From assembly GCF_036199905.1 (NCBI RefSeq), contig NZ_CP108109.1, forward strand, positions 1,054,001-1,118,000: a stretch of 64,000 nucleotides of DNA, given 5' to 3'. The DNA comes from Streptomyces sp. NBC_00223. Lineage in GTDB: Bacteria; Actinomycetota; Actinomycetes; Streptomycetales; Streptomycetaceae. The position numbers and the translations under genes were made by a program. Under the pieces are notes generated by a model. That model did not search any database. It was not told the DNA's origin and saw only the letters and a program-made list of their open reading frames with translations. This document shows positions 16,803-63,712 of this stretch, in pieces. Every line of letters starts with the position of its first letter. Position 1 is the stretch's first letter.

Positions 16803-17023
16803 GCGCCCGGCCGCCGCGAACCGGAAGGCTCGCAACGTCGCCGATCGTCCGACATGGCGGCCGGTGGTGGCTGGTCAGCGACGCCGGCTCCATACCCGCC
16901 ACCGACCCGGCGTTCGCCGCCGAACTGGACCGTCTCGCCACAGCGATGGCAGCCGCCGACCGCGCCGTTGCCGACCTGCGGGCCGCGCCGAACACACCGC
17001 CCACCCCCGGGTCCGGGCGGTAG
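16799..17023 (+). CDS. Small hypothetical protein, 74 aa
   Basis: The GTG overlaps the coupling-protein stop (GTGA), which implies translational coupling. The protein MSARPPRTGRLATSPIVRHG continues with a WW-containing strand (GGRWWLVSDAGS) and an amphipathic helix (AFAAELDRLATAMAAADRAVADLRA). No family was recognised. Its position between the coupling protein and the DnaB-N-like gene suggests a minor accessory role in the transfer block. Confidence 0.65.
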   Translation: MSARPPRTGRLATSPIVRHGGRWWLVSDAGSIPATDPAFAAELDRLATAMAAADRAVADLRAAPNTPPTPGSGR

Positions 17024-17025
17024 CC

Positions 17026-18183
17026 GTGAAGCCGCTGCTGGCCGCCGAGCAGGCGGTACTCGGGGCCGTACTCCTCGACCCCGGCCGACTCGACCAGCTC
17101 GACTGGCTGGACCCGGAACACTTCTACCGGCCCTCCCACCAGGCGCTGTTCACCGCGCTGCGCAAACTCCGCACCGCCGGCCACCCCGCCCGGACCGCCA
17201 CGGGAACCGTCCCGCTGTCGTGGGTGAACGACGCGGTCGCCGAAGCCGCCCGGCACTCGCCCGGTATGACGGTCGTGTACGCGCACACGCTGGTCTCGGC
17301 CTGCCCCCGCCCCGAACACGCCCCGGTCTACGGGCGGATGGTGCTGGAAGGCGCGATCCACCGCACGGTGACCGAGCACGCCGTACGCCTCCACCAGACC
17401 GCCCGAGCCGACGCGGTGCGCGGCGAAGTCGGCACCACCCTCCACCACGCGGACGTACTGGCCGCTGTGCTGGAGGACCTCGCCCGGCGCTGGGGCACCG
17501 AACCCCGCCCCGCCGGCCCGGCGCCGCTCCTCGCTCCCGCGAGTCCGGCCCCGGCCGAGGCCGAGATGGTCGCGGACGAGGAGCGGCTGCTCTTGGCGGC
17601 TCTGACCGAGCGGCCGTCCGGCATGGACGAAGTCGTCGGCTGGCTACGGCCCCAGGACTTCACCGGCCCCGCCCATCGCCAGCTCTACCGCTGTCTGAGC
17701 GCGCTGCACCACCGCGGCGAACCCATCGACCGGCTGACCCTGCTGTGGGAGGCCCAGCGGCGCGGCCTGTTGGCCGACGGCACGGTGACCGGCGAGCAGA
17801 TCACCGCGATCTGCGACGGCGTCGGACCCGGCAGCGCGCAGTGGCTCGGCGAGCAGGTGACCCGTTCCGCGCTGCTGCGGACTGCCGCCGCCACCGCCCG
17901 CACCATCCGCGACCTGGCCGCAACCGACGCACTGGCGCCCGGCCAGCTCATCAACCAGGCCCTGGCCGCCCTCGGTGTTCTCGACGGTGTCCGGCAGCGC
18001 CGGACCACCGGAACCCACCCGCCCGGACCGCCCCCGGTCTACGGCGAACCCGCCGCCGGGCCGCCTCCCGCGCAAGTCCGTGCCGCTCGCGCCCGCAGTA
18101 CCCCGCCCGCCTCAGCGCCCGGGGCGCCCGCCACTCCCTCTGCCGTGCCGCCGGTACGGCCGTCCTACCGGAGCCACACATGA
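17026..18183 (+). CDS. Protein with two DnaB N-terminal-like domains, 385 aa
   Basis: GTG at 17026 starts MKPLLAAEQAVLGAVLLDPG, the classic opening of DnaB N-terminal helical domains: LLAAEQAVLGAVLLDPGRLDQL, HFYRPSHQALFTALRKL. A second copy begins near residue 185 (VADEERLLLAALTERPSGMDEV, DFTGPAHRQLYRCLSALHHRGEPIDRLTL). No RecA-type helicase domain follows; the end is Pro/Ala-rich. It may bind primase or helicase loader proteins and so link transfer to replication. Whether it interacts with the DnaC-like and Rep proteins at 43.7-45.5 kb is inference. Confidence 0.75.
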   Translation: MKPLLAAEQAVLGAVLLDPGRLDQLDWLDPEHFYRPSHQALFTALRKLRTAGHPARTATGTVPLSWVNDAVAEAARHSPGMTVVYAHTLVSACPRPEHAPVYGRMVLEGAIHRTVTEHAVRLHQTARADAVRGEVGTTLHHADVLAAVLEDLARRWGTEPRPAGPAPLLAPASPAPAEAEMVADEERLLLAALTERPSGMDEVVGWLRPQDFTGPAHRQLYRCLSALHHRGEPIDRLTLLWEAQRRGLLADGTVTGEQITAICDGVGPGSAQWLGEQVTRSALLRTAAATARTIRDLAATDALAPGQLINQALAALGVLDGVRQRRTTGTHPPGPPPVYGEPAAGPPPAQVRAARARSTPPASAPGAPATPSAVPPVRPSYRSHT

Positions 18184-18696
18184 ACCAGCCGCACCATCCG
18201 GACGCCGAACTTGACGCGCTCGCCGTTGAGTTCGGCACCGTGCTGCACTCCTTCAGCGCCCAGGACCCCGTCCAGCACCACCTGTCCGAGCGCATGACCA
18301 CCGTCGTTGACCTCGCCGCGCGCCTCGGTTCCAAGATCCACGACGCCCACTACGCGCTGGCCACCTGCTCACCCGCCGACCGGTCCTCCCACGCGGCCAC
18401 CGCAACAGAGCTGTGCCACGCCGTCGGCGCCGCCGACCGGTACGGCAACCCCGACGCGGACACCGCCTTCGCCCGCACCCGGATCGCCGCCGCGCTCACC
18501 ACCGCCCGCGCCAACCTCACCGAGGCCAGCGGCTACCTGCGGCACCTGACGCACACCGAACCCCGCCGGCGGACAACTCCTGCGCGCCGCCCACGCCCGC
18601 AGCCGCCAGGCGGGCACCACCGCCATAGGCCGCGCCGCCATATCCCCCGCCAGCTCCAACACGCCGCTACCGCCGAACCCGGGGCACAAGCGCTGA
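18180..18696 (+). pseudogene. Hypothetical helical protein, frameshifted at CCCC near 18561
   Basis: The ATG overlaps the previous stop (ATGA). The frame MNQPHHPDAELDALAVEFGTV to ASGYLRHLTHTEP is protein-like, then becomes Arg/Pro junk. Removing one C from CCCC near 18561-18564 restores PAGGQLLRAAHARSRQAG, running to a TGA at 18694-18696. The reconstructed product is about 170 residues, mostly helical, with no recognised family. Without correction the frame reads through into the next gene. One extra base suggests either recent decay or an assembly error. Confidence 0.55.
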
Positions 18697-18788
18697 TGCA
18701 CCGGCCATCCGCGAGCCAGCCCCGTCCGGACACCCGTCACCCGTCCCAGGGGCGCCCCACTCACCACCAACTCCCCGAGGAACGCACC

Positions 18789-19382
18789 ATGACCAGCATC
18801 ACCGAGGCCCTGGCCCTGTACGACACGGCCAATCAGATCGACCGGCTCAACTTCCAACTGCGCGCCCTGGACCGTGATCCCGCTATCCCGTCTGTGAGCG
18901 AGGTGTCCTTTTACGTCCATACCCTGGCCGCGATCACCCTTTCGGTCAGCGACCAGGTCAAACACCGTCTGACCGAAGGGGGGTTCGACGGCGACGGGAA
19001 GAAGACCGTCGAGGCATACAGCGCCGTCCTCCCCCCGCTGAGCGAGGCCATGACCGAACTCGGACGCGCGCAAGCCGAGATCGCGTACTTCAACTTCACC
19101 ACCCACCCCGCCCACCGCGACAACCCGTCGGGCCTTGACCACTCCCGCCGACAGGCCAACGAGATCATCACCGGCTGCTGCGAGGCAGCCGACGAGATCC
19201 TCGAAGCCGCAGCCGACGATCTCCGCACGGCAGCAGGCCGCCTGGCACCGTCCCCCACCCACGCACAGGCCACCGCCCGCTCGCCCCACGCCTCCCTCTT
19301 CGGACAAAGCGCCCCGATGCCCGCAACCCCGCCCGCCCCGGCCCCCTCCACCGTGGCACCCACCGCCGCGAAGGGCCGATAA
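18789..19382 (+). CDS. Hypothetical protein, 197 aa, helical
   Basis: ATG at 18789 is preceded by GAGGAACGCACC. The protein MTSITEALALYDTANQIDRL is largely alpha-helical (LNFQLRALDRDPAIPSVSEVSF, HTLAAITLSVSDQVKHRLTEGG, LPPLSEAMTELGRAQAEIAY, ANEIITGCCEAADEILEAAADDLRTAAG) with a Pro/Ala tail. No domain was recognised. It ends one base before the methyltransferase ATG, so the two are probably in one operon. Confidence 0.7.
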   Translation: MTSITEALALYDTANQIDRLNFQLRALDRDPAIPSVSEVSFYVHTLAAITLSVSDQVKHRLTEGGFDGDGKKTVEAYSAVLPPLSEAMTELGRAQAEIAYFNFTTHPAHRDNPSGLDHSRRQANEIITGCCEAADEILEAAADDLRTAAGRLAPSPTHAQATARSPHASLFGQSAPMPATPPAPAPSTVAPTAAKGR

Positions 19383-19383
19383 C

Positions 19384-20578
19384 ATGCCGCCCCCATCAGC
19401 CACCGGGCCCGCGATCGGCAGCCTCTGCTCGGGCTACGGCGGACTCGACCTCGGCGTACAGGCCGTACTCGGCGGCACCGTGGCCTGGCACGCCGAGACC
19501 AGCCCCGACGCCTCACGGATCCTGGCCCGCCACTGGCCCGGCGTACCCAACCTCGGCGACATCACCACCATCGACTGGTCCGACGTACCGCGCATCTGCG
19601 TGCTGACCGCGGGCTTCCCGTGTCAAAGACGTCTCCGTCGCCGGCCGCCGCGCCGGACTCAACGCGAACACCCGCTCGGGGCTGTGGCTGCACGTCGCCC
19701 GCGCGGTCGAAGCCCTCCGCCCCTGCCTGGTGGTGATCGAAAATGTCCGAGGACTCCTCACCGCGAGCGCCGGTACCCCTGGCGACGTGGAACCCTGCCC
19801 GTGGTGTCTGGGAGACGACCCAGCCCAGCCTCCTCTGCGGGCACTTGGCGCCGTACTCGGCTCCCTGGCCGACCTCCGGTACGACGCACGCTGGCTCGTG
19901 CTACGCGCCTCCGACATCGGAGCACCCCACCGCCGCGAACGGACCTTCCTCACCGCCTGGCCCGCCGACGACCCTCCTCAAAACGCCGACGAGCAACATC
20001 GGCTCCAACGGCGGCTCCCAGCACCCGGTCAAGCGGAAGAGCGGCGGCCACGGACCGAACCTAGCCGACGAGATCGAGTGGCTGCTGCCCACCCCGAAGG
20101 CATCGGACGGAATCAAGGGCTCACCGAACCAGCGCCACGGCAACGGCGACCTGACCCTGCCGAGCGCGGCGGCCTCGCTGCGGCCCACCCCCAGGGCGAG
20201 CAACACCGGCGCCCCGGGAAAGCGTCCGGGCAAGAGCCGGCGGCCGCGGCTGTCGGCGGCGGTCCTGCCGCTGTGGGCGGAGGACCCATCGGAGGGGGAA
20301 GCGAAAGGCGATGGGGACCGTACGCCGCCGCCATCACCCGATGGGAGACCCTCACCCGCCCCGCACCACCACCCACCGACGCGGCCGGACGCCTGCGCGC
20401 TGACTTCGTCGAATGGATGCAAGGGCTCCCCGCGGGCTGGGTCGCCGACACCCCAGGCCTCGGCCGACCGGCCCAGCTCACCGCACTCGGCAACGGCGTC
20501 ATCCCCCAACAAGCCGCCCGAGCGCTTCAGTTGCTCGCACCGCCGTTTCACCGGCGCTGTGGCTGCCGCGATCGCTGA
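19384..20578 (+). pseudogene. DNA (cytosine-5) methyltransferase, frameshifted
   Basis: Motif order is that of C5 methyltransferases: SLCSGYGGLDLGVQ (SAM-binding motif I), TAGFPCQ with the catalytic Cys (motif IV), VIENVRGLL (motif VI), APHRRERTFL (motif VIII), and a C-terminal end containing LTALGNGVIPQQA (motif X). They lie in three frames. An extra A in CAAAGAC near 19625 splits PCQ from DVSVAGRRAGL; a lost base near 19985 and another near 20300 separate the target-recognition region. About 400 residues if corrected. As written it is inactive. It would have methylated the element's DNA against host restriction. Confidence 0.8.
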
Positions 20579-20931
20579 CTCCACCGGTCCAGGAATCCGA
20601 AGCAGCCCGAGAGAGCGGAACAGGGTATACCGCGCTACCCAGTGCCTGCCGTGCCGCCTCTGCCTGGGCGCAGGGCGGTACCGTGGCAATGCCGTCGATC
20701 ACGTTGAAAGGGTTGAAGCGCGACGTGACATCCGCTAACACCACAATGCCGCGAGCCGCGAGCCGCGAGCCGCGAGCCGCGAGCCGCGAGCCGCGAGCCG
20801 CGAGCCGCGAGCCGCGAGCCGCGAGCCGCGAGCCGCGAGCCGCGAGCCGCGAGCCGCGAGCCGCGAGCCGCGAGCCGCGAGTTACCGCGGTATTACCTCC
20901 GTGGGCACACCGGTAGGCATGCAAGGTAGCC
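20579..20931. other. Intergenic region around the 7-bp tandem repeat
   Basis: About 350 bases with no credible gene. The central part is the 19-copy repeat described separately; the flanks contain short AT-richer stretches (20735-20746 and 20881-20897), and the downstream flank probably holds the promoter of the next gene. The open frames through the repeat are artefacts of a 7-bp unit, which leaves no stop in several frames. Confidence 0.6.
20749..20881. repeat. Perfect tandem repeat, 19 copies of CCGCGAG
   Basis: 133 bases made of exactly 19 uninterrupted copies of the heptamer CCGCGAG, with no substitutions. It is bounded by ACAATG on the left and TTACCGCGG on the right. Perfect homogeneity implies recent expansion by slippage, so the copy number probably varies between strains. 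It lies about 50 bases before the gene at 20932, within its likely promoter or leader. Confidence 0.95.
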
Positions 20932-49341: not shown

Positions 49342-50733
49342 TCAGCCTACTCGGTGGAGAAGTGTGCGGGCCCGGTCGTCCAGCTCGGCTGCGGCAGTGC
49401 CTCCTCGGTGGCGCACGGGTGAGAGGGATCGACGCATCTGGACGGCGATGTCGCGGGTTCTTCCTGAGTGGACGCCGCCCATAGCATCAAGCGCCCTGGT
49501 CCAGGTGGCAATCGCTTCGTCGAGGTGTCCCCGGCGCACCTGTACTTCGCCGAGGTAGCCCAGCGTCACAGCGTGGGTTCGCGCGAAGGGGCCTGCCTGA
49601 CGGGTCCGGACGCTGCGATGGAACTCCCGCTCGGCGCCGGCCATGTCGCCGAGGTCCCGGAGAGCGCAGGCTGTCTCGTGGGCAAGGCTGGCTTCGGAGA
49701 AGAAGAAAACACGTCCGGGCTCGTCCACCGTGCCATCTTCTGCGGCGCGAAGGTCGTCCTCGGCACGGACCAGAGCCCGTGCGGCTCCGGATCGTTCGCC
49801 AGTGGCGGCTTCGGCTCGCGCGTGCACCACACCGAGGAGGGACTTCTCCCGAGGAGATGCGAGGTCGTACCGGTTGCGCTGGAGAGAGGCCGTGGAGAGA
49901 TTCAGGGCCTCGGCCGGATGTCCGAGGTCGACGGCCTGGTGGGCCATGGCCCGCAGGATGTGGCCGGCCAGGGGACCGTCGTCGGCCTCGGCGGTCAATT
50001 GCAGGGCGAGCTTGAAGTAGCTCTGCGCCAGGCTGTGTTCGCTCGCATCAAAGGCCGTCCAGCCTGCGAGGTAGGCGAGTTCTCCGGCGGCGGCCATCAG
50101 ATGGACCCGAGTTCGTTCGGACGTGAAGCGCCCCTGGACATAACCCGCGACCTCAGTGCGCAGGTAGGCGACCAGGGCAGTCCGGCCGACGCGCCCACCG
50201 CGCCGCTGGTCTCGTTGGGAGAAGAAGGTCGTCATCTCCCGGACACTCTCGACGTCGTCATCGGTGACGGCGATGTCCGTGGTCGAGCGGCGAGCGCGCG
50301 CACGTGCAGGGCGTTCGTCCCACCACGTATCCGGGGGAAGCGTGAGCCCGGCCACGGAGTAGGCCGAGTTCACCAGGATCTGCCGCCGGTTCATGTCCAA
50401 GTCCGAAGCCCCCAGATCCACCAAGGTCGTCACCGTGTCGATGTCCCACGTCGGCACGGTGGGCGTGGGCGCCGCTTCGTCGTGGAGTCCGATGTCGGCG
50501 AGTGTGACGACACGACCGAGCCCACGAGAAAGCGTCTCGCACAAGATAGTTGGTGCCTGTCCCCGGGGGCGCGACCCGCGCAGCCACTGGGAGATGTGCG
50601 AGCGGGTGACGGTCAGCAGGTCCGGGGCGCCGTTCTCGGCGGCGACGCGGCGGAAGTGTGCGGCAAGGCGGTCTTGCGGCCAGCCCAGCTCACGGATGAC
50701 GGCCTCCAGCCGGAGGTTGCGTGTCGGCGCCAT
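49342..50733 (-). CDS. XRE-type regulator with TPR-like domain, 463 aa
   Basis: Starts MAPTRNLRLEAVIRELGWPQ. The N-terminus has a helix-turn-helix (LAAHFRRVAAENGAPDLLTVTRSHISQWLRGSRPRG), then a linker, then about 280 residues of TPR-like helices (HLMAAAGELAYLAGWTAFDASEHSLAQSYFKLALQL, LGHPAEALNLSTASLQRNRYDLASPREKSLLG, HLDEAIATWTRALDAMGG). Such long XRE-TPR proteins sit beside metabolite clusters in Streptomyces and answer small signals. It is divergent from the 50925 gene and may control both directions. Confidence 0.85.
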   Translation of the reverse strand: MAPTRNLRLEAVIRELGWPQDRLAAHFRRVAAENGAPDLLTVTRSHISQWLRGSRPRGQAPTILCETLSRGLGRVVTLADIGLHDEAAPTPTVPTWDIDTVTTLVDLGASDLDMNRRQILVNSAYSVAGLTLPPDTWWDERPARARARRSTTDIAVTDDDVESVREMTTFFSQRDQRRGGRVGRTALVAYLRTEVAGYVQGRFTSERTRVHLMAAAGELAYLAGWTAFDASEHSLAQSYFKLALQLTAEADDGPLAGHILRAMAHQAVDLGHPAEALNLSTASLQRNRYDLASPREKSLLGVVHARAEAATGERSGAARALVRAEDDLRAAEDGTVDEPGRVFFFSEASLAHETACALRDLGDMAGAEREFHRSVRTRQAGPFARTHAVTLGYLGEVQVRRGHLDEAIATWTRALDAMGGVHSGRTRDIAVQMRRSLSPVRHRGGTAAAELDDRARTLLHRVG

Positions 50734-50924
50734 GGTGACTCCCCCTCTCGAAACGATCTTTAGCGGCGTTAGCGGCATCCGACAGCTTCCGGGGATACCC
50801 ACTGACTGTGAATCGCGGTTCGCTCAGTGTGAACGGTATTCCCTCCGACCCCACGGGGAGAGGGGGATCCGTCCAGTTCGCGCCGAGCCACGGGCCCGGT
50901 GCCGCACCGCTACTGGAGGACCTG

Positions 50925-53919: not shown

Positions 53920-54546
53920 ATGACGCGACAACCCCATGAATGGGCGGAAACACCGCCCCCGTCGGTCGTTCCGGTCTCCGCCGACCTTTTGGCGCGGGCG
54001 GGGTTCGACGTTCGTTCCGACCTCGGCCAACACTTCCTGCGGTCGAAGGAGGCGGCACGCCGACTCCTGGACTGTGCCGAACTGCCGGAGCGGGGACAGG
54101 TCCTGGAAATTGGGGCCGGGCTGGGCACGCTGTCGGAAGCGGTGGCAGAGACCGGCCACTGGATCTGGGCGGTGGAGAAGGACCGGCGGCTGGAAGGGAT
54201 TCTCCAAGCCGTGCTGCGCCCGTTCGGCCGACAGGCCCGTGTCAGCATCTCCGATGTTCGCGAGGTGGACCTGCACGAAGGTCTCGGCGCCGACACCGTA
54301 CTTCTGGCAATCATGCCGTTCGACTGGGAGTTGTCGGCGGCGCTCACCCGCCACGTGTTCGCCACCACGCCGAAGGTAGCCCGGGGCCTGGTGGTCGTTC
54401 CGAGCCGGACTCTGGAGAAGTACCAGGTGGCAGGAGAGGAGGCAGGTGGTCTGCGGCTGCGGGAAGTCGACGGGATCTCCCGCTTCGAGTTCTGGCCGAA
54501 GGCTCCCGAGGCGCTGCGCGTCGTGTCCATCGAGAGGCGCCAGTGA
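53920..54546 (+). CDS. KsgA/Erm-like SAM methyltransferase, short form, 208 aa
   Basis: The family opening is present (ADLLARAGFDVRSDLGQHFL with LGQHFL at 35-40) and motif I is normal (QVLEIGAGLGTLSEAVAETG, 60-79). The motif IV site that should be N-I/L-P-Y/F reads AIMPFDWE (130-137), so the catalytic Asn is missing, and the C-terminal helical domain of KsgA is reduced. It therefore may not dimethylate rRNA; an RNA- or nucleotide-modifying or a binding-only role is possible. First gene of the nine-gene overlapping operon. Confidence 0.75.
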   Translation: MTRQPHEWAETPPPSVVPVSADLLARAGFDVRSDLGQHFLRSKEAARRLLDCAELPERGQVLEIGAGLGTLSEAVAETGHWIWAVEKDRRLEGILQAVLRPFGRQARVSISDVREVDLHEGLGADTVLLAIMPFDWELSAALTRHVFATTPKVARGLVVVPSRTLEKYQVAGEEAGGLRLREVDGISRFEFWPKAPEALRVVSIERRQ

Positions 54547-55730
54547 ACCCACCGCTGATCATCACCACCGACTTCCACTCCAGCGTGCCCGAGGGGCGAG
54601 CCCTGCTGACCGCTGTGCGCGAGCACCGGGCCCGTGGTGCGCGGGTGGTGGACGCCGGGGACTTCTTCGGTGGCGCCGCCTTCCACGAGTTTTCGCAAGG
54701 AGAAGTGGAGGAATCACTGCTGGCGGAGCTGTACGACGCGCTGGTGCCGGGCAACCACGACTTCGCAGATTTGATGCGGCTTCGGAATCCGGACCTGTTC
54801 CCGCCAGTGGTATGCGCGAATGTCCGGCCGCCGCAAGGATTTGCCGGCCGCTGGGAGAGCGGTCTGCTGCTCCCGGGGGCCGGACCGCGGGTGGGGATCG
54901 TGGGGTATCTCGGACGGCAGGCGTACGAGGCCGTCCCTGCCGCCGAGCGTGCCGGGTTCGACTTCGTGGACCCGACCGCGGAGCTGATCATGGCAGAGCG
55001 GGACCGGTTGACGGCCGCCGGCGCCGATCTCGTTCTCGGGGTGAGCCACACAGGTTTCGCTCTCGATGTCGCCGATCAGGAAGACAGCTGGCCGCTGCGA
55101 GTGGTCCTTTCCGGGCACTGCCACAGCGCCTGGTACCACTGGGCATCCGCCGGCAGGCATGTCGTCAAGGCCCCGCACACCGGCCAGGGGCTACTGCGCG
55201 TCGACGTCGGCTCCGGCGGAGGTGACCGCTTCACCATCGAGACCCTCCCGGCAACCGCGGATGCCTCGGACCCGGACGGACTGGAGGAGGCGCTGTCCCG
55301 GTACGCGACCTGGGGAGCCAGGTTGATCGGCACTCTGCGTGCGCCGATCCCAGGCCGCGGGGATGTCGCGCGCCTGCTGGCCGAGCGAGCCCAGGCCGTG
55401 ACCGGTGCCGATGCCTTCGTCTTCAGCCTGTGGAGCCTTCGCGGAGGGCTACCGGAGGCCGTCACCCGCCAGGCCCTCTCAAGCTGTGCTCCCTTCGACG
55501 CCGACCTCGTACTTCTGGACGGTGTCCACCACACGGAAACGGTCCGGAAACGGCTGCGTCTGCTCGGCGAAGAGCCTGTCATGTACTCCTCGGCCAGCGG
55601 TGCGGGCACAGCGCGGGCCGTGGCGACCACGAGCTATCTCGCCGAACGGCTGGGCGTTGCGGCCCGGCCCGTCGTCCCGCCGCGCACGCTGCGCGGCATA
55701 CTCACCGATCTCGTTATGGAGTCCTTATGA
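54543..55730 (+). CDS. Metallophosphoesterase, 5'-nucleotidase-like, 395 aa
   Basis: GTG overlaps the methyltransferase stop by 4 bases. Calcineurin-type metal ligands: TTDFHSS (Asp10, His12), VVDAGDFFGG (Asp40), VPGNHDFADL (Asn71, His72) and LSGHCHSAWYH near residue 190. A C-terminal domain of about 190 residues resembles the substrate-binding part of bacterial 5'-nucleotidases. There is no signal peptide, so it is cytoplasmic, unlike UshA. It could dephosphorylate a nucleotide intermediate made by the dCTP-deaminase-like proteins. Confidence 0.8.
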   Translation: MNPPLIITTDFHSSVPEGRALLTAVREHRARGARVVDAGDFFGGAAFHEFSQGEVEESLLAELYDALVPGNHDFADLMRLRNPDLFPPVVCANVRPPQGFAGRWESGLLLPGAGPRVGIVGYLGRQAYEAVPAAERAGFDFVDPTAELIMAERDRLTAAGADLVLGVSHTGFALDVADQEDSWPLRVVLSGHCHSAWYHWASAGRHVVKAPHTGQGLLRVDVGSGGGDRFTIETLPATADASDPDGLEEALSRYATWGARLIGTLRAPIPGRGDVARLLAERAQAVTGADAFVFSLWSLRGGLPEAVTRQALSSCAPFDADLVLLDGVHHTETVRKRLRLLGEEPVMYSSASGAGTARAVATTSYLAERLGVAARPVVPPRTLRGILTDLVMESL

Positions 55731-56548
55731 GCGACGTGCTGGCCCTTGACGGCCACGAGCTCTCGCACGGCCCCACCGCACCACGCGAGTTCGCTGCCCG
55801 GCTCACCGGCGAGGGAGCCGGAGTCGCGTTGATCTCCTTCCCCGAAGACACTGACCACCGCCGCAACCTCGAACTCGGCCTGGGGCTGCTGTCGGCTCTC
55901 GGTCCGGTGCTGAGCGTCTACCCGGAGGACGGCTGCTGGAGCGACTTGGAGGTGCGCCTCGACGCCGACCCCGCACGGACCCACGGCGTCGGCGAGAACC
56001 GGCTGCACGTCGACCTCGTGGATCGCGAGTTGAGCCCGCGGTACATCGCTCTGTACTGCGTCCGCGACGACCCACGGAAAGGGGGAGCCTCGGCCCTGTC
56101 CGACCTGTGGGCCGCCGCCGGCGACGTGACTTCCGCCGACCGGAGCCTGCTCAGCCTTCCTCTGTTCTCCTACTGGGCCGACAAGGGTGTCCACGGCGTC
56201 GGTGAGAGCCTGAACCGGTTCGCGGTGCTGCCCGCGAGGATCGATGGCACCGCGCCGATCCGCTTCACCAGCAAAATGCTCTTCCACCTGCGGCACGGAG
56301 AACTCGTCGAGGCGGACAACAGCACCATTCCCTACTTCACCGAGGCGTTCGACCGGCTCGTCAGCGCCGTATACGAGCGCCACTTCGCCGTCCGGCTGCT
56401 CCCGGGGCAGTTGCTCGTCTTCGACCAGTGGCGTTACGCGCACGGCCGACTGCCGCTGGGGACGGGCCAGGAAGCGATTCCGCCCGGGCAACGGCGCCTG
56501 CTCAAGCAGGGCTACGTGGGCCAGGCGGGCCTCGGAGGTGCTCTGTGA
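55727..56548 (+). CDS. TauD-like Fe(II)/2-oxoglutarate oxygenase, 273 aa
   Basis: ATG overlaps the previous stop (ATGA). The metal triad is visible: His94-x-Asp96 in NRLHVDLVDRE and His239 in QWRYAHGRLPLG, with Arg241 as the likely 2-oxoglutarate anchor. The length fits the TauD/clavaminate synthase group. Such enzymes hydroxylate amino acids or nucleotides (LipL-type oxygenases oxidise UMP in nucleoside antibiotics). The substrate here is not known; free or tRNA-bound proline and a nucleotide are both plausible. Confidence 0.8.
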   Translation: MSDVLALDGHELSHGPTAPREFAARLTGEGAGVALISFPEDTDHRRNLELGLGLLSALGPVLSVYPEDGCWSDLEVRLDADPARTHGVGENRLHVDLVDRELSPRYIALYCVRDDPRKGGASALSDLWAAAGDVTSADRSLLSLPLFSYWADKGVHGVGESLNRFAVLPARIDGTAPIRFTSKMLFHLRHGELVEADNSTIPYFTEAFDRLVSAVYERHFAVRLLPGQLLVFDQWRYAHGRLPLGTGQEAIPPGQRRLLKQGYVGQAGLGGAL

Positions 56549-57090
56549 TCCTCACCGGACCCGCCATCCGGCACGCCGTGGACCGCGGGGAGATCACCAT
56601 CGACCCGTTCGACCCGGACCAGCTCAATCCCAACAGCTACAACTACCGTCTCGGTGACGTGCTGAAGGTGGCTGTCGGCGGGCCTGCCGACCCTCGCCAG
56701 GACACGGAACTGGAGACCATCCGTATTCCGTCGAGTGGGTTCGAGCTCCAACCGGGCACTGTCTACCTCGGTGCGACGGTCGAGCGGATCGGCAGCCCCC
56801 GCTACGTGGCGAGCCTCATCGGGCGGTCCTCGCTCGGACGTCTCGGCTGCTTCCTTCAGATCTCCGCCGATCTCGCGCAACTCGGCGCGCTGCACCGGTG
56901 GACGCTGGAGATCGTCGTCGTCCAGCACCTCACCGTCTACGCCGGGATGCGCATGGGCCAGGTGTCGTTCTGGGAAAGGGTGGGTGCCGGGGCGCCTTAC
57001 GTCGGCTACTACGGCAGGCTCGACGATCCGTCCCCCTGCTCCCCCAGCGCCCTGGCCGGCATCGCGGTGCAAGAGGGGAGCGCGGCGTGA
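56545..57090 (+). CDS. dcd: dCTP deaminase paralog 1 (catalytic Glu kept, C-terminal lid absent)
   Basis: GTG overlaps the previous stop. MILTGPAIRHAVDRGEITID, PDQLNPNSYNYRLGD and IGRSSLGRLGC (RSSLGRLG at 94-101) are Dcd motifs. Glu122 in TLEIVVV occupies the position of the catalytic Glu (E138 in the E. coli enzyme). The end (YYGRLDDPSPCSPSALAG) lacks the usual KYxxQxxPxxS lid that closes over the nucleotide. It would convert dCTP or a related cytosine nucleotide to the uracil form, possibly only as a mixed oligomer with paralog 2. Confidence 0.8.
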   Translation: MILTGPAIRHAVDRGEITIDPFDPDQLNPNSYNYRLGDVLKVAVGGPADPRQDTELETIRIPSSGFELQPGTVYLGATVERIGSPRYVASLIGRSSLGRLGCFLQISADLAQLGALHRWTLEIVVVQHLTVYAGMRMGQVSFWERVGAGAPYVGYYGRLDDPSPCSPSALAGIAVQEGSAA

Positions 57091-57611
57091 TCCTCACCGG
57101 ACCGGAGATCCACGCCCGGGTCAGGAGCGGAGAGATCGAGATCGATCCGTTCGATCCCGTCCTCCTGAGCCCCAACAGCTACGACTTCCACCTCGGCACC
57201 ACCATTGGCTGGTACACCGAGACTCACCTCGACTGCGCGCGGGAGAACGCGTTCGGGATCCACACGATCCCGCCCGAGGGCCTGCTCCTCTCTCCTGACC
57301 GGATCTACCTCGCCGCCACCGCGGAGCGCATCGGCAGCGACCACTTCGTGCCCATCATCCGTGCCCGTAGCAGTGTTGCGAGGCTGGGCCTGTTCGTCCA
57401 CGTCACCGCCGATCTGATCGACATCGGCTCCCACAGCCATCTCACGCTGCAACTGCACGCGGTCCGGCCGGTGAGGATCTACCCGGGGCTGCGAATCGGA
57501 CAGGTCACATTCTGGGCAGTCCAGGGCGAGATCGTCCTGTACGACGGCAAGTACCAAGGTGCCGAGCAGCCGATGGCCTCGCAGATCCATCGCGACTTCG
57601 AGGGGCGGTGA
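57087..57611 (+). CDS. dCTP deaminase paralog 2 (Glu replaced by Gln, lid present)
   Basis: GTG overlaps the stop of paralog 1. The start MILTGPEIHARVRSGEIEID and SPNSYDFHLG match paralog 1 closely. RSSVARLG lies at 94-101, but residue 122 is Gln (LTLQLHAVR) where paralog 1 and true Dcd have Glu. The C-terminus DGKYQGAEQPMASQIHRDF is the normal lid. The two proteins therefore complement each other's missing parts, which suggests a hetero-oligomer with one functional type of site. Alone, this copy is probably not a deaminase. Confidence 0.8.
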   Translation: MILTGPEIHARVRSGEIEIDPFDPVLLSPNSYDFHLGTTIGWYTETHLDCARENAFGIHTIPPEGLLLSPDRIYLAATAERIGSDHFVPIIRARSSVARLGLFVHVTADLIDIGSHSHLTLQLHAVRPVRIYPGLRIGQVTFWAVQGEIVLYDGKYQGAEQPMASQIHRDFEGR

Positions 57612-58336
57612 CCCCTGTGCCCGCTGAGGACCTGAGCGTGGACGAACACGTCGTGGCGGTGGTGGCGCACCCCGATGACGCCGAACTGCTCGCCTATGGA
57701 ACCCTTCGCCGCTATCACCACCTCGGTGCCGAGGTCACCGTGCTGATCGCGACCCGCGGCGCCAACGGTGTCTCCCTCACGGACGCCGCGCGCGGCGTCC
57801 GTCTCACCGAAGGCACACGTACACGCGAGGTCGAGGCGGCCTGGGACGGCACGGGTGTCGAGCTGGCCTGGCTCGGCCTTGCCGACAGCTCGCTGCACTC
57901 CGACCGCGGTCTGGTCTCCGCCGTCGAAGGAGAACTCGTGCGCCTGGGCTGTACGACCGTCATCACTCACAGCCCGCACGCGGGCAACGACCACCAGGAC
58001 CATCTCGCGCTCGCGACGGCCACCGCCAACGCCGTCACCCGCGTGCCGTCCTGTCGAACCGTGCTCTACGGCGAGCCCCACTCCCCCCGCAGCAACTTCG
58101 CTCCCACTGTCCTGGTCGACATCACTGTCTTCCTCGACGACAAGGTCAAAGCGCTGGCCCGTCACAAGACTCAAGAAGGCCGCTGGTACCTGGAGGAGAA
58201 CTACACCCGCCATCGGGCAGCGGCGGCCGGCTGGCGGCTGCGCCCCACTGCCTCCGCGGCGGGGCGCGCGTTCGAGGCGTTCGAGACGCCCCTGCTCACC
58301 CTGCTGAACCCGCCACCAGAACAGGAGCGCACGTGA
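57608..58336 (+). CDS. PIG-L (LmbE-like) N-acetylglucosamine deacetylase family, 242 aa
   Basis: GTG overlaps the previous stop. The metal motif AHPDDAELLAYG (20-31) and the second-half THSPHAGNDHQDHLAL give the zinc ligands and catalytic Asp of the PIG-L fold. Family members remove acetyl groups from GlcNAc on lipid, inositol (MshB) or nucleoside (tunicamycin-type) carriers. With the two glycosyltransferases in this cluster, it probably deacetylates a transferred GlcNAc-like sugar to a free amine. Confidence 0.85.
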   Translation: MTPVPAEDLSVDEHVVAVVAHPDDAELLAYGTLRRYHHLGAEVTVLIATRGANGVSLTDAARGVRLTEGTRTREVEAAWDGTGVELAWLGLADSSLHSDRGLVSAVEGELVRLGCTTVITHSPHAGNDHQDHLALATATANAVTRVPSCRTVLYGEPHSPRSNFAPTVLVDITVFLDDKVKALARHKTQEGRWYLEENYTRHRAAAAGWRLRPTASAAGRAFEAFETPLLTLLNPPPEQERT

Positions 58337-59064
58337 TCCACATCGAACAGCCGCCCTTCCTGCCGTGGCTCGGCTTCTGCGAAGCGCTGCTCGCCTGCTC
58401 CACCCTCGCGCTCTACGACGACGTGCAGTTCACCGAACGCGGCTGGCAGAACCGCAACCGGATCAAGACGGCCAACGGCATCGCCTGGATCACCGTCCCC
58501 GTCTCCCACAAGAACGGGCAGCTCATCCGCGACACCCGAATCGCCGAGAGCTTTGACCCCACAGCCACGATCAAGGGCATCCGCCTTGCGTACGGACGAA
58601 CCACGTACATCGACGAGGCCCTCCAGGTCCTCGCCCCGCCGCTGTCCGCAGGACACCGGTGGCTGGCCGACCTCACCCTCGACCTCGTCACGCAGATCGC
58701 GCTCGCGCTCGGTTCCCGGGCCTCCCTGCTCCTCACGTCCCAGATGACCCTCACGGAATCCGACGACAAGACCGAGCGCCTGGCCCTCATTTGTGAGGCC
58801 GCCGACGAGACGACTCTGTGGGCGGGCTCGGGCACACGGCAATACCTCGACACCGCGGCGCTCGCCGAGCGCGTCACCGTCATCTGGAACGAGTTCACCG
58901 ATCGCCATCCGCGCTACGCCCAGCCCTGGCAGAAACAGGGCTTCGCACCGGGCCTGTCCGTCGTTGACGCGGCCTGCTCGATCGGCTGGGCCGGGGTGTC
59001 CGCGATGCTGCGCGCCGGCCTGTGCTCCTACCGCCCCACCGCAGACACGGGAGAAGCACGATGA
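58333..59064 (+). CDS. WbqC-like protein, 243 aa
   Basis: GTG overlaps the PIG-L stop. MIHIEQPPFLPWLGFCEALL is the conserved family opening (xxQPxFLPxxGxxxxL), followed by LYDDVQFTERGWQNRNRIKT and GIAWITVPVSHKNG. The C-terminal part includes IWNEFTDRHPRYAQPW and LSVVDAACSIGWAG. WbqC proteins occur in O-antigen and polyketide/sugar clusters and are thought to acylate or aminoacylate amino sugars; this is unproven for the family. In this operon it is a candidate for attaching an aminoacyl group. Confidence 0.75.
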   Translation: MIHIEQPPFLPWLGFCEALLACSTLALYDDVQFTERGWQNRNRIKTANGIAWITVPVSHKNGQLIRDTRIAESFDPTATIKGIRLAYGRTTYIDEALQVLAPPLSAGHRWLADLTLDLVTQIALALGSRASLLLTSQMTLTESDDKTERLALICEAADETTLWAGSGTRQYLDTAALAERVTVIWNEFTDRHPRYAQPWQKQGFAPGLSVVDAACSIGWAGVSAMLRAGLCSYRPTADTGEAR

Positions 59065-60173
59065 TCCGCCCCCGCCTCCTGACCGGCATCGACCTGCCCC
59101 TGGAGCCGTCCTGCGGCTCCACCATCTGGGCCAACGACGTGTACCGGCAGCTCGCCCCCGACTTCCGCACCGCGTTCATGGCCATGCCCGGCTCCGACAC
59201 GTGGCCCCACGGCTTCGAGGAGACCATCGACCTCCGCGCGGCCAAGCACCCCTACGGGCCGCGCTTCGCCCGGTACGCCGAGAAGTTGACGGACGAGGTC
59301 GAACGGTTCGTACGCATCTGGCGCCCCCACCTGATCCACGCGCAGCACTTGGGCTTCGGGCTCGCTCTCGCCTTCGCCCGCGCCGCAGGCAATACCCCGC
59401 TCATCTCCATCGCGCACGGCACCGACATCATCGCCGCCACCGAAAACGACCAGGCCCGCGACGCCCTGACCGAGGTCGTCACGGCCAGTACCGCGGTCGC
59501 CGTAACGAACACCGCGATGGCCGACCAGGTGGACGCCCTCACCCAGGGGAGGTTCACCGAGCGCCTGATCGCCATTCCCTGGGGAATTCCCCTGCCGGAG
59601 CACCCCACAGCCGCTCGGCTCACCGACACGCGCCGCCTGCGGCTGCTGCATGCGGGGCGCCTGGACGCGAACAAGTCCACGGCCACCGCGATCGAGGCCA
59701 TGGCGCTCACCGCCGACAAGCACCATCTCACCATCATCGGCAGCGGCAGCGAACTGCCCGGCCTCACCGCCCAGGCCACCAACCTCGACCTTGCCGGCCA
59801 GGTCCGCTTCGAGCCCTTCATGACCCGCGAGGCACTGTGGCAGCGCTTCGCCGACTTCGACGCATTCTTGTTCACCACCAAGCAGCTGGAAGCGTTCGGC
59901 CTGGTCGCCGTCGAGGCTCAGGCCCACGGGCTCCCGGTCGTCTACGGTGACCTGCCGGGCCTGCGTCAGACGCTCGGCGCCGGCGCCCTCGCCTACCGGC
60001 CCGGCGACGCCGCCGCCCTGGCCGCGTGCGTCGACCAGCTCGCCGAGGACACCGATCTGCGCCACGACCTGGGCATCGCCGCAGCCGTCAGCGCCCGACG
60101 CCATGACATCAGGGCGACCGCCACGCACTTGCGCGACCTGTCCAACACCGTGCTGGAGGTGCGCCGTGTCTGA
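59061..60173 (+). CDS. GT4 glycosyltransferase, 370 aa
   Basis: ATG overlaps the previous stop. The GT-B pattern is clear: acceptor domain with LLTGIDLPLEPSCGSTIWAND and ISIAHGTDIIAATE, donor domain with LRLLHAGRLDANKSTATAIEAMAL, GSGSELPGL and the E-x7-E motif QLEAFGLVAVEAQAHGLPVV, which binds the nucleotide-sugar phosphate and ribose. MshA-type enzymes, which add GlcNAc to an inositol phosphate, have this layout. The acceptor here is unknown. Confidence 0.85.
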   Translation: MIRPRLLTGIDLPLEPSCGSTIWANDVYRQLAPDFRTAFMAMPGSDTWPHGFEETIDLRAAKHPYGPRFARYAEKLTDEVERFVRIWRPHLIHAQHLGFGLALAFARAAGNTPLISIAHGTDIIAATENDQARDALTEVVTASTAVAVTNTAMADQVDALTQGRFTERLIAIPWGIPLPEHPTAARLTDTRRLRLLHAGRLDANKSTATAIEAMALTADKHHLTIIGSGSELPGLTAQATNLDLAGQVRFEPFMTREALWQRFADFDAFLFTTKQLEAFGLVAVEAQAHGLPVVYGDLPGLRQTLGAGALAYRPGDAAALAACVDQLAEDTDLRHDLGIAAAVSARRHDIRATATHLRDLSNTVLEVRRV

Positions 60174-61818
60174 GACCCCGCTGTACGCAAGCCGCTTGTG
60201 GCCTCCCGTACGCCGCCGAGCGGCCAACGCGTCCCTTTCCACGCTGGACCTGCTGGAATCCCTGGGCTACGTCGCCAAAACCGACGCCACCGGCGTGTTC
60301 ACCCTGCTGCCACTCGGACTGCGGGTCCACGACCGGCTGACCCGGCTCGCCCGGACGGCGTTCGAGGAACGCGGTGCGAATACTGTCGCGTTTCCCACGC
60401 TGCAAAGCCGCTCGCTGTGGGAGCAGTCCGGCCGGTGGGACGTCTACCAGTCCGAAGGCGCACTCCTCACCTCCACGAGCAGAGGCGGTGAGGAAATGTG
60501 CCTGGCCCCGACCTCAGAGGAGATCGCCGCCGCCACGGTGCGCGACCGCCTGCGCTCCCACCACGACCTCCCCGTACGGCTGTTCCTGAGTACCACCAAG
60601 TTCCGCGACGAGATCGCTCCACGCGGCGGGCTGATGCGCGGCCGCGAGTTCACCATGGCCGACGCGTACACCTTCGACACCGACCCTCAAGCGATGTACG
60701 CGTCGATCCGCATCCTCAACGATGCCTGCCGAACAGCCTTGGCGCGCATGGGCCTGACTGGCGTCTTTCAAGCCGCGGCCGACGGCGGCAGCATCTCGGC
60801 AGGGCCGTCCACCGAGCACCTCGTCCTCGGTGACACCGGGCAGAGCACCATCCTGGTCTGCGATCACTGCGGTCACCGCGGCGACCACGCCGTCCTGCGG
60901 GGGAAGGCCGTCCCGCAGGCCAACCCGGTCGTCAACATCATCGCCTTCGCCCTCACCGCCCACGACGGCTCTGTCGCCCCGGCAGCTGTGGCCATCCGCT
61001 CCGACTTGCAGGTCAGCTCCCGCAAACTCGCCGCCGCCACCGGCGCCGCCCGCGTGGCTCTCCTGAATCCCGCCCAACTGCCTGAACTCTTCGGCAAGGA
61101 AGCCGGCACCCTCACCCCCTGGGACTGCACCGGCACGACCGTCTTCTTCGACGACTCCGTCGCCCACCTGGAGATCTTCGCCATCTCCGACGGCGTCAGC
61201 GGCCTTCGCCACAATGTCACCTGGACGGACACGAAGGACCTCGGCGCTCTGTCGCCCACAGCCGTCGACCTCCACCGCTCAGCCGCGGGCATGGGGTGCA
61301 GCCGCTGCGAAGACGGCAACTACCGCGAGGCCGGCGCCATCGAACTCGCCCACGTCTTCGAACTCGGCACCCAGTACGCCACCTCGATGAATCTGTCCTT
61401 CACCGACGATCACGGCACCTCGCATACCCCCTACTCGGCCTGCTCCGGCATCGGTATCACCCGCTGCCTGCAGACCCTCGCCGACCTCCACCGCGACAGC
61501 AACGGCCTGCGGTGGAAGCCCGAAACCTCGCCGGCCGACCTCCACATCACCGTCCTGCGCCCCGACCTGCCCGCCATGCGTGAACGCACCGACCTCGTCG
61601 TACAGCACCTGCGCGGACGCGGTGCCGCCCTGTTCGTCGACGACCGGCCCGAACCGGCCGGCGAGAAATTCCGGTACGCCCGTCTCCTCGGCCTCCCGCA
61701 CACCCTGGTCCTCTCCCCGCGGCAGCACGGCGACGAGGTCGAACTCATCAACCGGTGGACCACCCGGACCCGCCGAACACCAATCAGCCAGATCCCCGAC
61801 ACCTGGAGCCCACGCTAA
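60166..61818 (+). CDS. proS: Prolyl-tRNA synthetase paralog, full-length bacterial type, 550 aa
   Basis: GTG overlaps the GT4 gene by 8 bases. All class II motifs are intact: LAPTSEE (113-119), FRDEIAPRGGLMRGREF (146-162, motif 2) and GIGITR (428-433, motif 3). The INS editing-type domain lies between about 250 and 385 (NPVVNIIAFALTAHDGSVAP to TWTDTKDLG). Cys pairs C232/C235 and C378/C381 and the C-terminal anticodon-binding domain (FVDDRPEPAGEKFRY) are present. It is unlikely to be the housekeeping enzyme, given its operon and sequence drift. It should charge a tRNA with proline or an analogue; the tRNA-like gene at 62012, 193 bases downstream, is the obvious partner. Confidence 0.9.
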   Translation: MSETPLYASRLWPPVRRRAANASLSTLDLLESLGYVAKTDATGVFTLLPLGLRVHDRLTRLARTAFEERGANTVAFPTLQSRSLWEQSGRWDVYQSEGALLTSTSRGGEEMCLAPTSEEIAAATVRDRLRSHHDLPVRLFLSTTKFRDEIAPRGGLMRGREFTMADAYTFDTDPQAMYASIRILNDACRTALARMGLTGVFQAAADGGSISAGPSTEHLVLGDTGQSTILVCDHCGHRGDHAVLRGKAVPQANPVVNIIAFALTAHDGSVAPAAVAIRSDLQVSSRKLAAATGAARVALLNPAQLPELFGKEAGTLTPWDCTGTTVFFDDSVAHLEIFAISDGVSGLRHNVTWTDTKDLGALSPTAVDLHRSAAGMGCSRCEDGNYREAGAIELAHVFELGTQYATSMNLSFTDDHGTSHTPYSACSGIGITRCLQTLADLHRDSNGLRWKPETSPADLHITVLRPDLPAMRERTDLVVQHLRGRGAALFVDDRPEPAGEKFRYARLLGLPHTLVLSPRQHGDEVELINRWTTRTRRTPISQIPDTWSPR

Positions 61819-62011
61819 TCCGCTCCGCGCCAAAGGCGCAGAACACCTTTCATGTCGCCGTTCGACAGTCTGAACGGCGACAGAATTCGGCTGCCGAAAT
61901 TCCAAGGAAAACCCGGCGCAGAACCGAGAAATCGAATGACTGAAACCCGCCGACGATACTGATCTCCGAATTGACCACCCGTCTCTTTACCTCTAGCCTC
62001 GAATCAGTCAC
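61819..62011. promoter_or_regulatory. Promoter region of the tRNA-like gene
   Basis: The sequence becomes AT-richer (61850-62000). A good vegetative promoter is visible: TTGACC at 61971-61976, 17-bp spacing, TAGCCT at 61994-61999, which would start RNA near 62006, just before the mature 5' end at 62012. Thus the RNA probably has its own promoter, apart from the operon upstream. No other gene was found here. Confidence 0.6.
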
Positions 62012-62085
62012 CGGGTTGTAGCTCAACGGCGGAGCACGGCATAAGTGTTGCCGAGGAGCTGGTTCAACTCCAGCCGACCCGACCA
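62012..62085 (+). tRNA. tRNA-like gene, proline-type acceptor, abnormal anticodon loop, encoded CCA
   Basis: A complete cloverleaf: acceptor CGGGTTG/CGACCCG (one G-U), T8 A9, D arm GCTC-AACGGCG-GAGC with G18 G19, anticodon stem CGGCA/TGCCG, variable AGGA, T arm GCTGG-TTCAACT-CCAGC, A73 and CCA. The C1:G72 pair and A73 are identity elements of bacterial tRNA-Pro. The seven-base anticodon loop is UAAGUGU: position 33 is A instead of the near-universal U, and 34-36 are AGU rather than NGG. The body is well kept while the decoding loop is not, so this is not a random pseudogene. It probably receives an amino acid from the adjacent ProRS paralog for use outside normal decoding. Confidence 0.75.
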
Positions 62086-62203
62086 AACCCTCTGGCACTG
62101 GCGGCCGGGGGCGCCCAGCCCCAGCAGCTCATGCAGGCCGCCGAGAGACCAGACACCCAGAGACCAAACGCAACGACAATTACGCAGACCAGGTGCGGTG
62201 CAG

Positions 62204-63310
62204 ATGAAAATCGGAATTACTGGCGGCGGAAGCGCCGGGCACGTCGTGCCCGCTCTCGCAGTAGCGAACCGACTCCCCGCCCAGGGAGCCACGGAACTGG
62301 TGTTCTTCGGGCGCGCCGACAGTATCGAACACGAATACGCCAAAAAGACCGGAATCCCGTTCCGGCCCGTACCTTCCGCGGGTTTGAAACGCTACGGCTC
62401 GTGGAGCAACGTCCTGATGCCCTTCACGGTGCTGCGAGGCATCGGGGCCGCCGTCCTGGCCATGCGCCGCGAGCGGCCCGATGCCCTGTTCTCCAAAGGC
62501 AGTTACGTCTCCGTGCCGGTCGGAATCGCCGCCTGGCTCTGCCGCGTTCCGATCGTGGTCCACGAGTCCGACCACTCCCTCGGGCTCGCCAACAAGATCG
62601 TCGCCCGGATGGCCGACCGGGTATGCCTGTCCGTCACGCCCCCTGCCGACACGCCACGATGGCTGTCCCGCAAGTCCGTCGTCACCGGCCTTCCGCTGCG
62701 CCACGATCTCGCCTCCGGCAACCCCGAGCGGCTGCGCCGGCGCCTCGGCATCCCGGCGCGGCCCGTCCTGCTCATCTTCTGCGGCAGCAGTGGGTCCCAG
62801 CGCATCAACGACGCCGTCACCAGCCAGCTCACCACCTTGTGCGCGCGCTTCGCGGTCATCCACGTCCGAGGCAAGGGCAACCTCGACCCTTCCCTCGACG
62901 ACGTGCCGGGGTACCGGCAACTGGAGTACCTGCACGAAGAGATGGCCGACGCGCTGTGGCTCGCCGACCTCGTCATCGGACGCGCCGGGGCAACAACGCT
63001 CGCGGAAATCGAAGCGCTCGGCAAACGGGCCGTCCTCATCCCGCTCCCCGCGGCAGTCAGTCGCGGCGACCAGCTCGACAACGCCGACGCCTACGCCCGC
63101 CGCCACCCCGGACAGTGCATCGTGATCCCCGACGACGAGGAACTGCGGGGCGGAGCGTCGCTTGCCAAGGCGTGCACGGAACTGGCCGCCGGCCTCGGGA
63201 CCTCTTCGCCAGAGCAGCCCGACCCACAGGCCGTCCACCGTGCTTCCGACCTCATCGCGCGGGAAACCGTGGCGGCGGCCCGGCCCCGGCGGGCACTGCA
63301 CGCCCGGTAG
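62204..63310 (+). CDS. murG: MurG-like glycosyltransferase, 368 aa
   Basis: ATG at 62204 gives MKIGITGGGSAGHVVPALAV, the glycine-rich start of MurG (GGTGGH type). Later motifs are also present: LFSKGSYVSVPVGIAAWLCRVP, VVHESDHSLGLANKI, CGSSGSQRIN and GRAGATTLAEIEALGKRAVLIPLP. True MurG adds GlcNAc to lipid I on the membrane; a second copy inside a specialised cluster probably glycosylates another acceptor, perhaps the pathway's own intermediate. In-frame GTG at 62198 is an alternative start. Confidence 0.85.
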   Translation: MKIGITGGGSAGHVVPALAVANRLPAQGATELVFFGRADSIEHEYAKKTGIPFRPVPSAGLKRYGSWSNVLMPFTVLRGIGAAVLAMRRERPDALFSKGSYVSVPVGIAAWLCRVPIVVHESDHSLGLANKIVARMADRVCLSVTPPADTPRWLSRKSVVTGLPLRHDLASGNPERLRRRLGIPARPVLLIFCGSSGSQRINDAVTSQLTTLCARFAVIHVRGKGNLDPSLDDVPGYRQLEYLHEEMADALWLADLVIGRAGATTLAEIEALGKRAVLIPLPAAVSRGDQLDNADAYARRHPGQCIVIPDDEELRGGASLAKACTELAAGLGTSSPEQPDPQAVHRASDLIARETVAAARPRRALHAR

Positions 63311-63325
63311 CCCCCCGGTAGGACG

Positions 63326-63712
63326 TCAGCCGTCGTGGTGCCCGTACATCGCGAGGATCTGCTCCTCGGACTCCCCACGGTGATACACGTGGAAGTGCAG
63401 GTGCCGGGATTCCTGATAGAGCCCGACGTTCGTGGTGACGGAAGCCGCACCGTGCTCCGCCTCCACCCGCGCGGCCACCTGCCGGACGACCGCCATCACC
63501 TCGCCGAGCAACTCCTCACCCCCGTCCCCGAGATCGACCAGGGACGGCGTGTGCTCCTTCGGCACCACCACGACATGTACCGGGTAGGCCGGGTTCGTGT
63601 GCTCGAACGCGAGCACCCGCTCCGTCTCCACCACCACCTTGACCGGCGTAAGCCCGGAAACGGCCTGGTGACAGTAGAAGTCCGAAGTCGACGAGCCCAC
63701 GGCAGCGGTCAC
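63326..63712 (-). CDS. HIT-family hydrolase/transferase, 128 aa
   Basis: The protein MTAAVGSSTSDFYCHQAVSG carries the family pattern VLAFEHTNPAYPVHVVVVPKEH and the active-site SRHLHFHVYH (HxHxH). HIT proteins hydrolyse nucleoside phosphoramidates or dinucleotides, including aminoacyl-adenylates. It is convergent to the MurG-like gene by 16 bases. With an aminoacyl-tRNA synthetase and nucleotide enzymes nearby, breakdown of aminoacyl-AMP or a nucleotide by-product is a reasonable role (inference). Confidence 0.85.
   Translation of the reverse strand: MTAAVGSSTSDFYCHQAVSGLTPVKVVVETERVLAFEHTNPAYPVHVVVVPKEHTPSLVDLGDGGEELLGEVMAVVRQVAARVEAEHGAASVTTNVGLYQESRHLHFHVYHRGESEEQILAMYGHHDG

Follow-up and report, generated by a model that had tools for sequence, protein, structure and literature searches.

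What does a proline-type tRNA with a threonine anticodon do beside a set of predicted biosynthetic enzymes? The question is raised by a locus of Streptomyces sp. NBC_00223 (contig NZ_CP108109.1, positions 1,054,001 to 1,118,000; this 64,000-nucleotide stretch is the window analyzed here), in which a tRNA gene and a paralog of prolyl-tRNA synthetase (ProRS) share a cassette with ten further protein genes. We found that the tRNA and synthetase correspond to the published tRNAProX/ProRSx pair, and that the complete cassette, with the tRNA and all eleven protein genes in the same sequence, occurs in 13 of 14 ProRSx loci of Streptomyces-family bacteria. Judging from gene families and predicted structures, we propose, with a probability of roughly 0.45, that the cassette joins this pair to enzymes that would build a glucosaminyl conjugate, with Pro-tRNAProX giving proline to the sugar amine; aminoacylation by a WbqC-family protein fed by Pro-tRNAProX would be the most likely use of tRNAProX. 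Families were assigned with Pfam for all eleven proteins and with NCBIfam for all but the HIT protein, and the cassette reads as follows in window coordinates:

53920..54546, + strand, KsgA/Erm-like methyltransferase (MT), PF00398
54543..55730, + strand, calcineurin-like phosphoesterase of 5'-nucleotidase type (MPE), PF00149
55727..56548, + strand, TauD/clavaminate-synthase-like Fe(II)/2-oxoglutarate oxygenase (TauD), PF02668
56545..57090, + strand, Dcd1, dCTP-deaminase paralog, PF22769
57087..57611, + strand, Dcd2, dCTP-deaminase paralog, PF22769
57608..58336, + strand, PIG-L deacetylase, PF02585
58333..59064, + strand, WbqC-family protein of predicted BshC-like fold, proposed prolyl transferase, PF08889
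59061..60173, + strand, GT4 glycosyltransferase, superfamily of MshA and BshA, PF00534
60166..61818, + strand, ProRSx, ProRS paralog with editing and anticodon domains (Pfam)
61971..61999, + strand, promoter-like TTGACC-17-TAGCCT upstream of the tRNA (consensus comparison across loci)
62012..62085, + strand, tRNAProX with AGU anticodon, tRNAProT type (fold and Rfam)
62204..63310, + strand, MurG-like GT28 glycosyltransferase, PF03033 and PF04101
63326..63712, - strand, HIT-family protein, PF01230

Gene calls and Pfam matches placed the nine genes with overlapping ends, the tRNA, the MurG-like gene and the convergent HIT gene where an earlier note on this DNA had put them; in the run from MT to ProRSx, seven overlaps span 4 bases each and the remaining one spans 8. 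What that note called a tRNA-like gene is present, but as a complete tRNA fold with encoded CCA and not as something merely tRNA-like. With C1-G72, A73, A33, A34 and an AGU anticodon, it fits the description of tRNAProX, namely a proline-type acceptor end, A33 plus A34 and an anticodon for Ala, Thr or Asn, here Thr. The idea that this tRNA is invisible to Rfam was dropped, as the Rfam tRNA model scores 49 bits. According to a 2024 review (PMC11415595), tRNAProX has A33, an A15-A48 pair, G21 and A34 and is encoded with ProRSx, the AGU form being tRNAProT. The synthetase of the window is a distinct ProRS isoform that adjoins the tRNA and exists besides the canonical ProRS: relatives of ProRSx reach 85% identity, and a second ProRS-like gene in the same genome shares 37% identity with it over residues 14-253. 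The label “undescribed” in the earlier note is therefore withdrawn for the tRNA and the ProRS paralog. The published pair was described for mistranslation, whereas here it stands within a surrounding enzyme cassette. We found no description of this cassette in the open-licence literature searched; the original papers (PNAS 2021, JBC 2023) lie outside that literature and may describe the neighborhood. Nine more ProRS paralogs (P0070-P0078, 41-45% identity) form a separate group; none of them was matched to contigs of the WbqC clade, and they may belong to another system. The 416-residue ProRSx of Streptomyces goshikiensis (P0079) is of low complexity from roughly residue 250 onward, and inspection by eye suggests a frameshift there, not a shortened enzyme.

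The gene set recurs beyond chance, as confirmed by 12 distinct loci besides the window that repeat its genes and gene order at 52-83% protein identity. A scan of genome contigs with ProRSx, from which the best 80 of 92 loci were taken, gave seven ProRSx-like loci at 60-81% identity (L031-L037), all with the eleven protein genes in order and the tRNA; the other 73 of the best 80 (26-39% identity) were left out of the neighborhood comparison. Together with the window, a plasmid locus (L114) and L122, L124, L125 and L126, these make up the 13 complete loci, while L112, L115, L118 and L120 were set aside as repeats, judged by length, of contigs already counted. For the earlier note, homologous loci that lack the gene set would have spoken against its reading, and among the 14 ProRSx loci there is just one. 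In this decayed locus (L123), ProRSx is interrupted and GT4 broken, MT through WbqC were not found, and the tRNA, MurG and HIT genes are present. Because tRNA and synthetase share a block with the same ten genes in 13 of 14 loci, tRNAProX likely hands proline to the predicted sugar-aminoacylating enzyme and does not serve translation errors alone. The pair itself is rare: a close ProRSx match was found in 1 of 35 genomes of the genus (the window's own), 4 of 394 in a family sample (own included), 2 of 70 and 7 of 392 in two genera, and 1 of 394 in a class sample (again the window's own), where WbqC occurred in 1 of 226, also its own.

The scheme that we propose takes every step from family and fold, as distinct from the gene order and conservation, motif states, tRNA features, promoter-like site and match of WbqC models to the BshC fold, which were observed directly. 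GT4 would put an N-acetylated amino sugar on an acceptor, possibly a nucleotide; MPE would take off a phosphate, much as the phosphatase of mycothiol synthesis acts between the MshA and MshB steps; and PIG-L would expose the amine. ProRSx would charge tRNAProX with proline, and WbqC, with a BshC-like HUP fold and without a HIGH-type motif, would accept the prolyl group from Pro-tRNAProX. Dcd1 and Dcd2 would work together as a single heteromeric deaminase of nucleotides, hydroxylation would fall to TauD, and a second N-acetylhexosamine would be attached by the MurG-like enzyme. The substrate of MT may be the tRNA or the prolyl product, and HIT may process a nucleotide by-product.

The motifs of these enzymes were examined across the 13 complete loci. 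Best NCBIfam models were Glyco4_Geo_Pelo for GT4 (54 bits, ahead of MshA at 48.5 and BshA at 42.3, all below their cut-offs) and BshB2 for PIG-L (63.4 bits against a cut-off of 195.25; MshB, at 24.5, was also under its cut-off), so that neither protein reached equivalog level for BshA/MshA or BshB/MshB in NCBIfam. AHPDD in PIG-L, GNHD and HCH in MPE, HxD and AHGR in TauD, RAGATTLAE in the MurG-like protein and HxHxH in HIT are each present in 13/13. The solved structures nearest to MPE are 5'-nucleotidases, clavaminate synthase 3 (E 0.0015) is the sole PDB match of TauD that reaches E 0.01, and the MurG-like protein scores 212.9 bits with TIGR01133, below the 250.25 cut-off. dCTP deaminases use a catalytic Glu in the chain. 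Dcd1 (TIGR02274 at 66.2 bits, below the 92.8 cut-off) keeps this Glu when aligned to 2qlp (WTLEI, 13/13) and has the C-terminal KYQ in 0/13, whereas Dcd2 (94.1 bits against the same cut-off), aligned to 2qxx, has Gln in its place (LTLQxH, 13/13) and the KYQ tail motif in 13/13. As Glu and KYQ are divided between them, the two proteins are suggested to act as one mixed enzyme. The catalytic motif of KsgA/Erm RNA methyltransferases, N-[LIM]-P-[YF], was found in MT in 0/13 loci, the position being I-x-P-F in all 13. An anti-phage defence system was considered and rejected, as a PADLOC scan of ten proteins (HIT left out) gave a single match, between MT and part of mad2 (46.8 bits, E 4.7e-13).

The step on which the proposal turns is that of WbqC. 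Predicted structures of WbqC match the Rossmann/HUP fold of BshC; by sequence, at a threshold of E 0.001, it matches only PF08889 and falls outside the BshC family (PF10079). A PDB sequence search with the WbqC profile returned only two matches, both of glutaredoxin/thioredoxin type (E 0.05-0.08). The cassette thus resembles the BshA-BshB-BshC route to bacillithiol in having GT4, PIG-L and a BshC-like predicted fold within one operon. It differs in that its GT4 and PIG-L stay under the equivalog cut-offs, its WbqC lies outside the BshC Pfam family, and its operon adds a proline synthetase, a tRNA and extra nucleotide enzymes. With the mycothiol route (MshA-MshA2-MshB-MshC) it has in common GT4, a phosphatase, PIG-L and an aminoacyl-ligase logic. 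From the mycothiol-type logic of the earlier note we retain GT4 and PIG-L, now joined by the BshC-like WbqC, but not the assignment of the ligase slot to the synthetase paralog. MshA2 is the name given to the mycothiol phosphatase (PMC4360819), and MshC joins cysteine using ATP (PMC9437257); unlike this ATP-using Cys ligase, ProRSx appears to be a complete tRNA synthetase that comes with a tRNA of its own. A parallel for a charged tRNA as donor is offered by SbzA and the cyclodipeptide synthases, which are class I-synthetase-like and use an aminoacyl-tRNA as the source of their amino acid (PMC9437257), as is proposed for WbqC. The donors described there, however, are Ile-, Phe- and Leu-tRNA, while the cassette carries a special tRNA gene of its own.

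Several results weigh against the feeding of WbqC by Pro-tRNAProX, and the first concern WbqC itself. A WbqC profile compared with four BshC sequences showed no relation (hhalign probability 0.1 per cent), and Foldseek by itself did not place BshC among the 50 matches listed for the second model. Further such results come from the behavior of the tRNA in E. coli and from relatives of the cassette that lack the pair.

In E. coli, reporters and mass spectrometry show mistranslation by tRNAProX according to a commentary (PMC10365949) and a review (PMC11415595); the commentary describes proline inserted at Ala, Asn and Thr codons. The pair could accordingly be dedicated to mistranslation, with ProRSx charging tRNAProX, the ribosome reading ACU (or GCU or AAU) as proline, and the neighboring enzymes separate, linked by chance or co-regulated. 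We regard this as somewhat unlikely. It would agree with the tRNA having its own promoter-like site, a TTGnCn-17/18-TAnnnT consensus found in 13/13 complete loci and not found in L123, and with the enzyme core existing without the pair in a Kitasatospora locus described below; on the other side, the full enzyme set accompanies the pair in 13 of the 14 loci, A33 is invariant in the cassette tRNAs, and the review calls the host function of tRNAProX/ProRSx unknown (PMC11415595). Recoding within the operon was rejected: of the aligned codon columns that hold at least three cognate codons (GCT for the AGC loci, ACT for the AGU loci), the only columns listed, none contains ACT in an AGU locus, and nothing pointed to a programmed recoding site. 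Nor is either codon avoided in the 13 loci, with GCT making up 190/3166 Ala codons in AGC loci against 99/1988 in AGU loci, and ACT 45/1071 Thr codons in AGU loci against 65/1686 in AGC loci. In the window, the cassette has ACT at 16/211 Thr codons, and the other called genes have GCT at 97/1585 Ala codons and ACT at 33/780 Thr codons. Cognate codons in the cassettes thus show no avoidance and no conservation. Between ProRSx and the tRNA of the window there is also an inverted repeat, TGTCGCCGTTC/GAACGGCGACA (61853-61882), which is not evidently conserved.

The Kitasatospora locus (L190) has MPE (in two separate tblastn pieces), TauD, Dcd1, Dcd2, PIG-L, WbqC, GT4, MurG and HIT, with the same split of Glu without KYQ and Gln with KYQ between Dcd1 and Dcd2. 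ProRSx, the tRNA and MT were not found in it, the whole genome gave no ProRSx match at E 1e-80, and the interval between GT4 and MurG is taken up by an FGE-sulfatase-family gene. Among 75 WbqC-clade clusters, 33 were labelled with ProRSx (31 through contig matching and two by hand, the window and the 31052-base contig of L124), 8 with an FGE-like protein and no listed ProRSx, 2 with both and 32 with neither; this way of matching labels is indirect, and some members are concealed by the 90% clustering. Mapped on the tree of WbqC, the ProRSx label requires five changes and the FGE label four (each 0/500 shuffles as low); in one clade of nine rows, five members carry the FGE label, four carry neither label and none carries the ProRSx label. 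From L190 and the tree labels together, ProRSx and the tRNA, and perhaps also MT, appear to form an accessory module on top of a broader core. Because the core occurs in L190 without tRNAProX and 8 of the 75 clusters have FGE only, WbqC seems not to depend on tRNAProX everywhere. Only two WbqC positions part ProRSx from FGE clusters, 8 (P in 28/31, A in 7/8) and 97, and these differences may reflect ancestry. Among the 392 genomes of one genus scanned for ProRSx above, the close WbqC clade (63-76%) occurs in six, which are the six with intact ProRSx, and eight others have only a distant WbqC (30-36%). In four Streptomyces loci (L175, L176, L177 and L179), PIG-L adjoins a distant WbqC; GTP cyclohydrolase I adjoins it in L175, and L179 has a similar open reading frame by eye along with a phosphoribosyltransferase and an FGE-like gene.

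A use of Pro-tRNAProX in biosynthesis that bypasses WbqC would suit L190, the one locus where WbqC is kept while both ProRSx and MT are missing, and would suit the four contigs matched in both the FGE and ProRSx lists. WbqC would then add some other amino acid everywhere, and a module of ProRSx, tRNA and MT would add proline by another cassette enzyme. This is quite unlikely in our view, as the ten cassette proteins besides ProRSx gave 0 matches to aminoacyl-transferring families (Pfam and NCBIfam; HIT, Pfam only). Duplicated synthetases protect other producers, as SerRS2 does with albomycin (PMC9437257), and ProRSx might likewise be a resistant ProRS that shields its producer from a ProRS-directed product. 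Such a role is very improbable: a dedicated non-canonical tRNA adjoins ProRSx, and the E. coli work is said to suggest that tRNAProX is the only tRNA acylated by ProRSx (PMC11415595), so that the enzyme could not sustain translation of proline codons.

The genes flanking the cassette mostly differ from locus to locus, and for this reason the cassette appears to be a self-contained unit passed on by horizontal transfer. Spread by viruses or plasmids was rejected, since no viral contig carrying the cassette was found (a phage collection was not searched) and the only plasmid is one linear one; no integration repeat was found at the nearby tRNA-Pro(ggg). An XRE-family regulator is annotated in L114, and similar open reading frames occupy the same place in L032, L034, L037 and L125, in a grouping that also took in open reading frames antisense to MT. 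A regulator-like gene upstream of the cassette in the window (49342-50802; a TPR match under the cut-off and an XRE-like start by eye) did not group with them. Elsewhere in the window, a TraG/TraD-type conjugation coupling protein and a DnaB-like gene (15420-18183) suggest an integrated mobile element. On the L114 plasmid, from Streptomyces sp. NBC_00239, an SDR gene follows the cassette, and after it come two radical SAM genes, one gene for an LD-carboxypeptidase (S66) and one of class II synthetase type (16169-20650), possibly a second amino-acid-handling cluster.

Taken to its most specific form, the delivery of proline to WbqC would make tRNAProX a non-ribosomal tRNA, the dedicated proline carrier for a BshC-like ligase whose product would be an N-prolyl-glucosaminyl nucleoside, with BshC completing bacillithiol from Cys-tRNA; we consider this unlikely as a whole. 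The tRNAProX/ProRSx pair gains a conserved enzymatic setting and hence a function that can be tested directly. The unsolved ligation step of BshC likewise becomes testable through WbqC, as WbqC and BshC may both be HUP-fold enzymes that require a charged tRNA.
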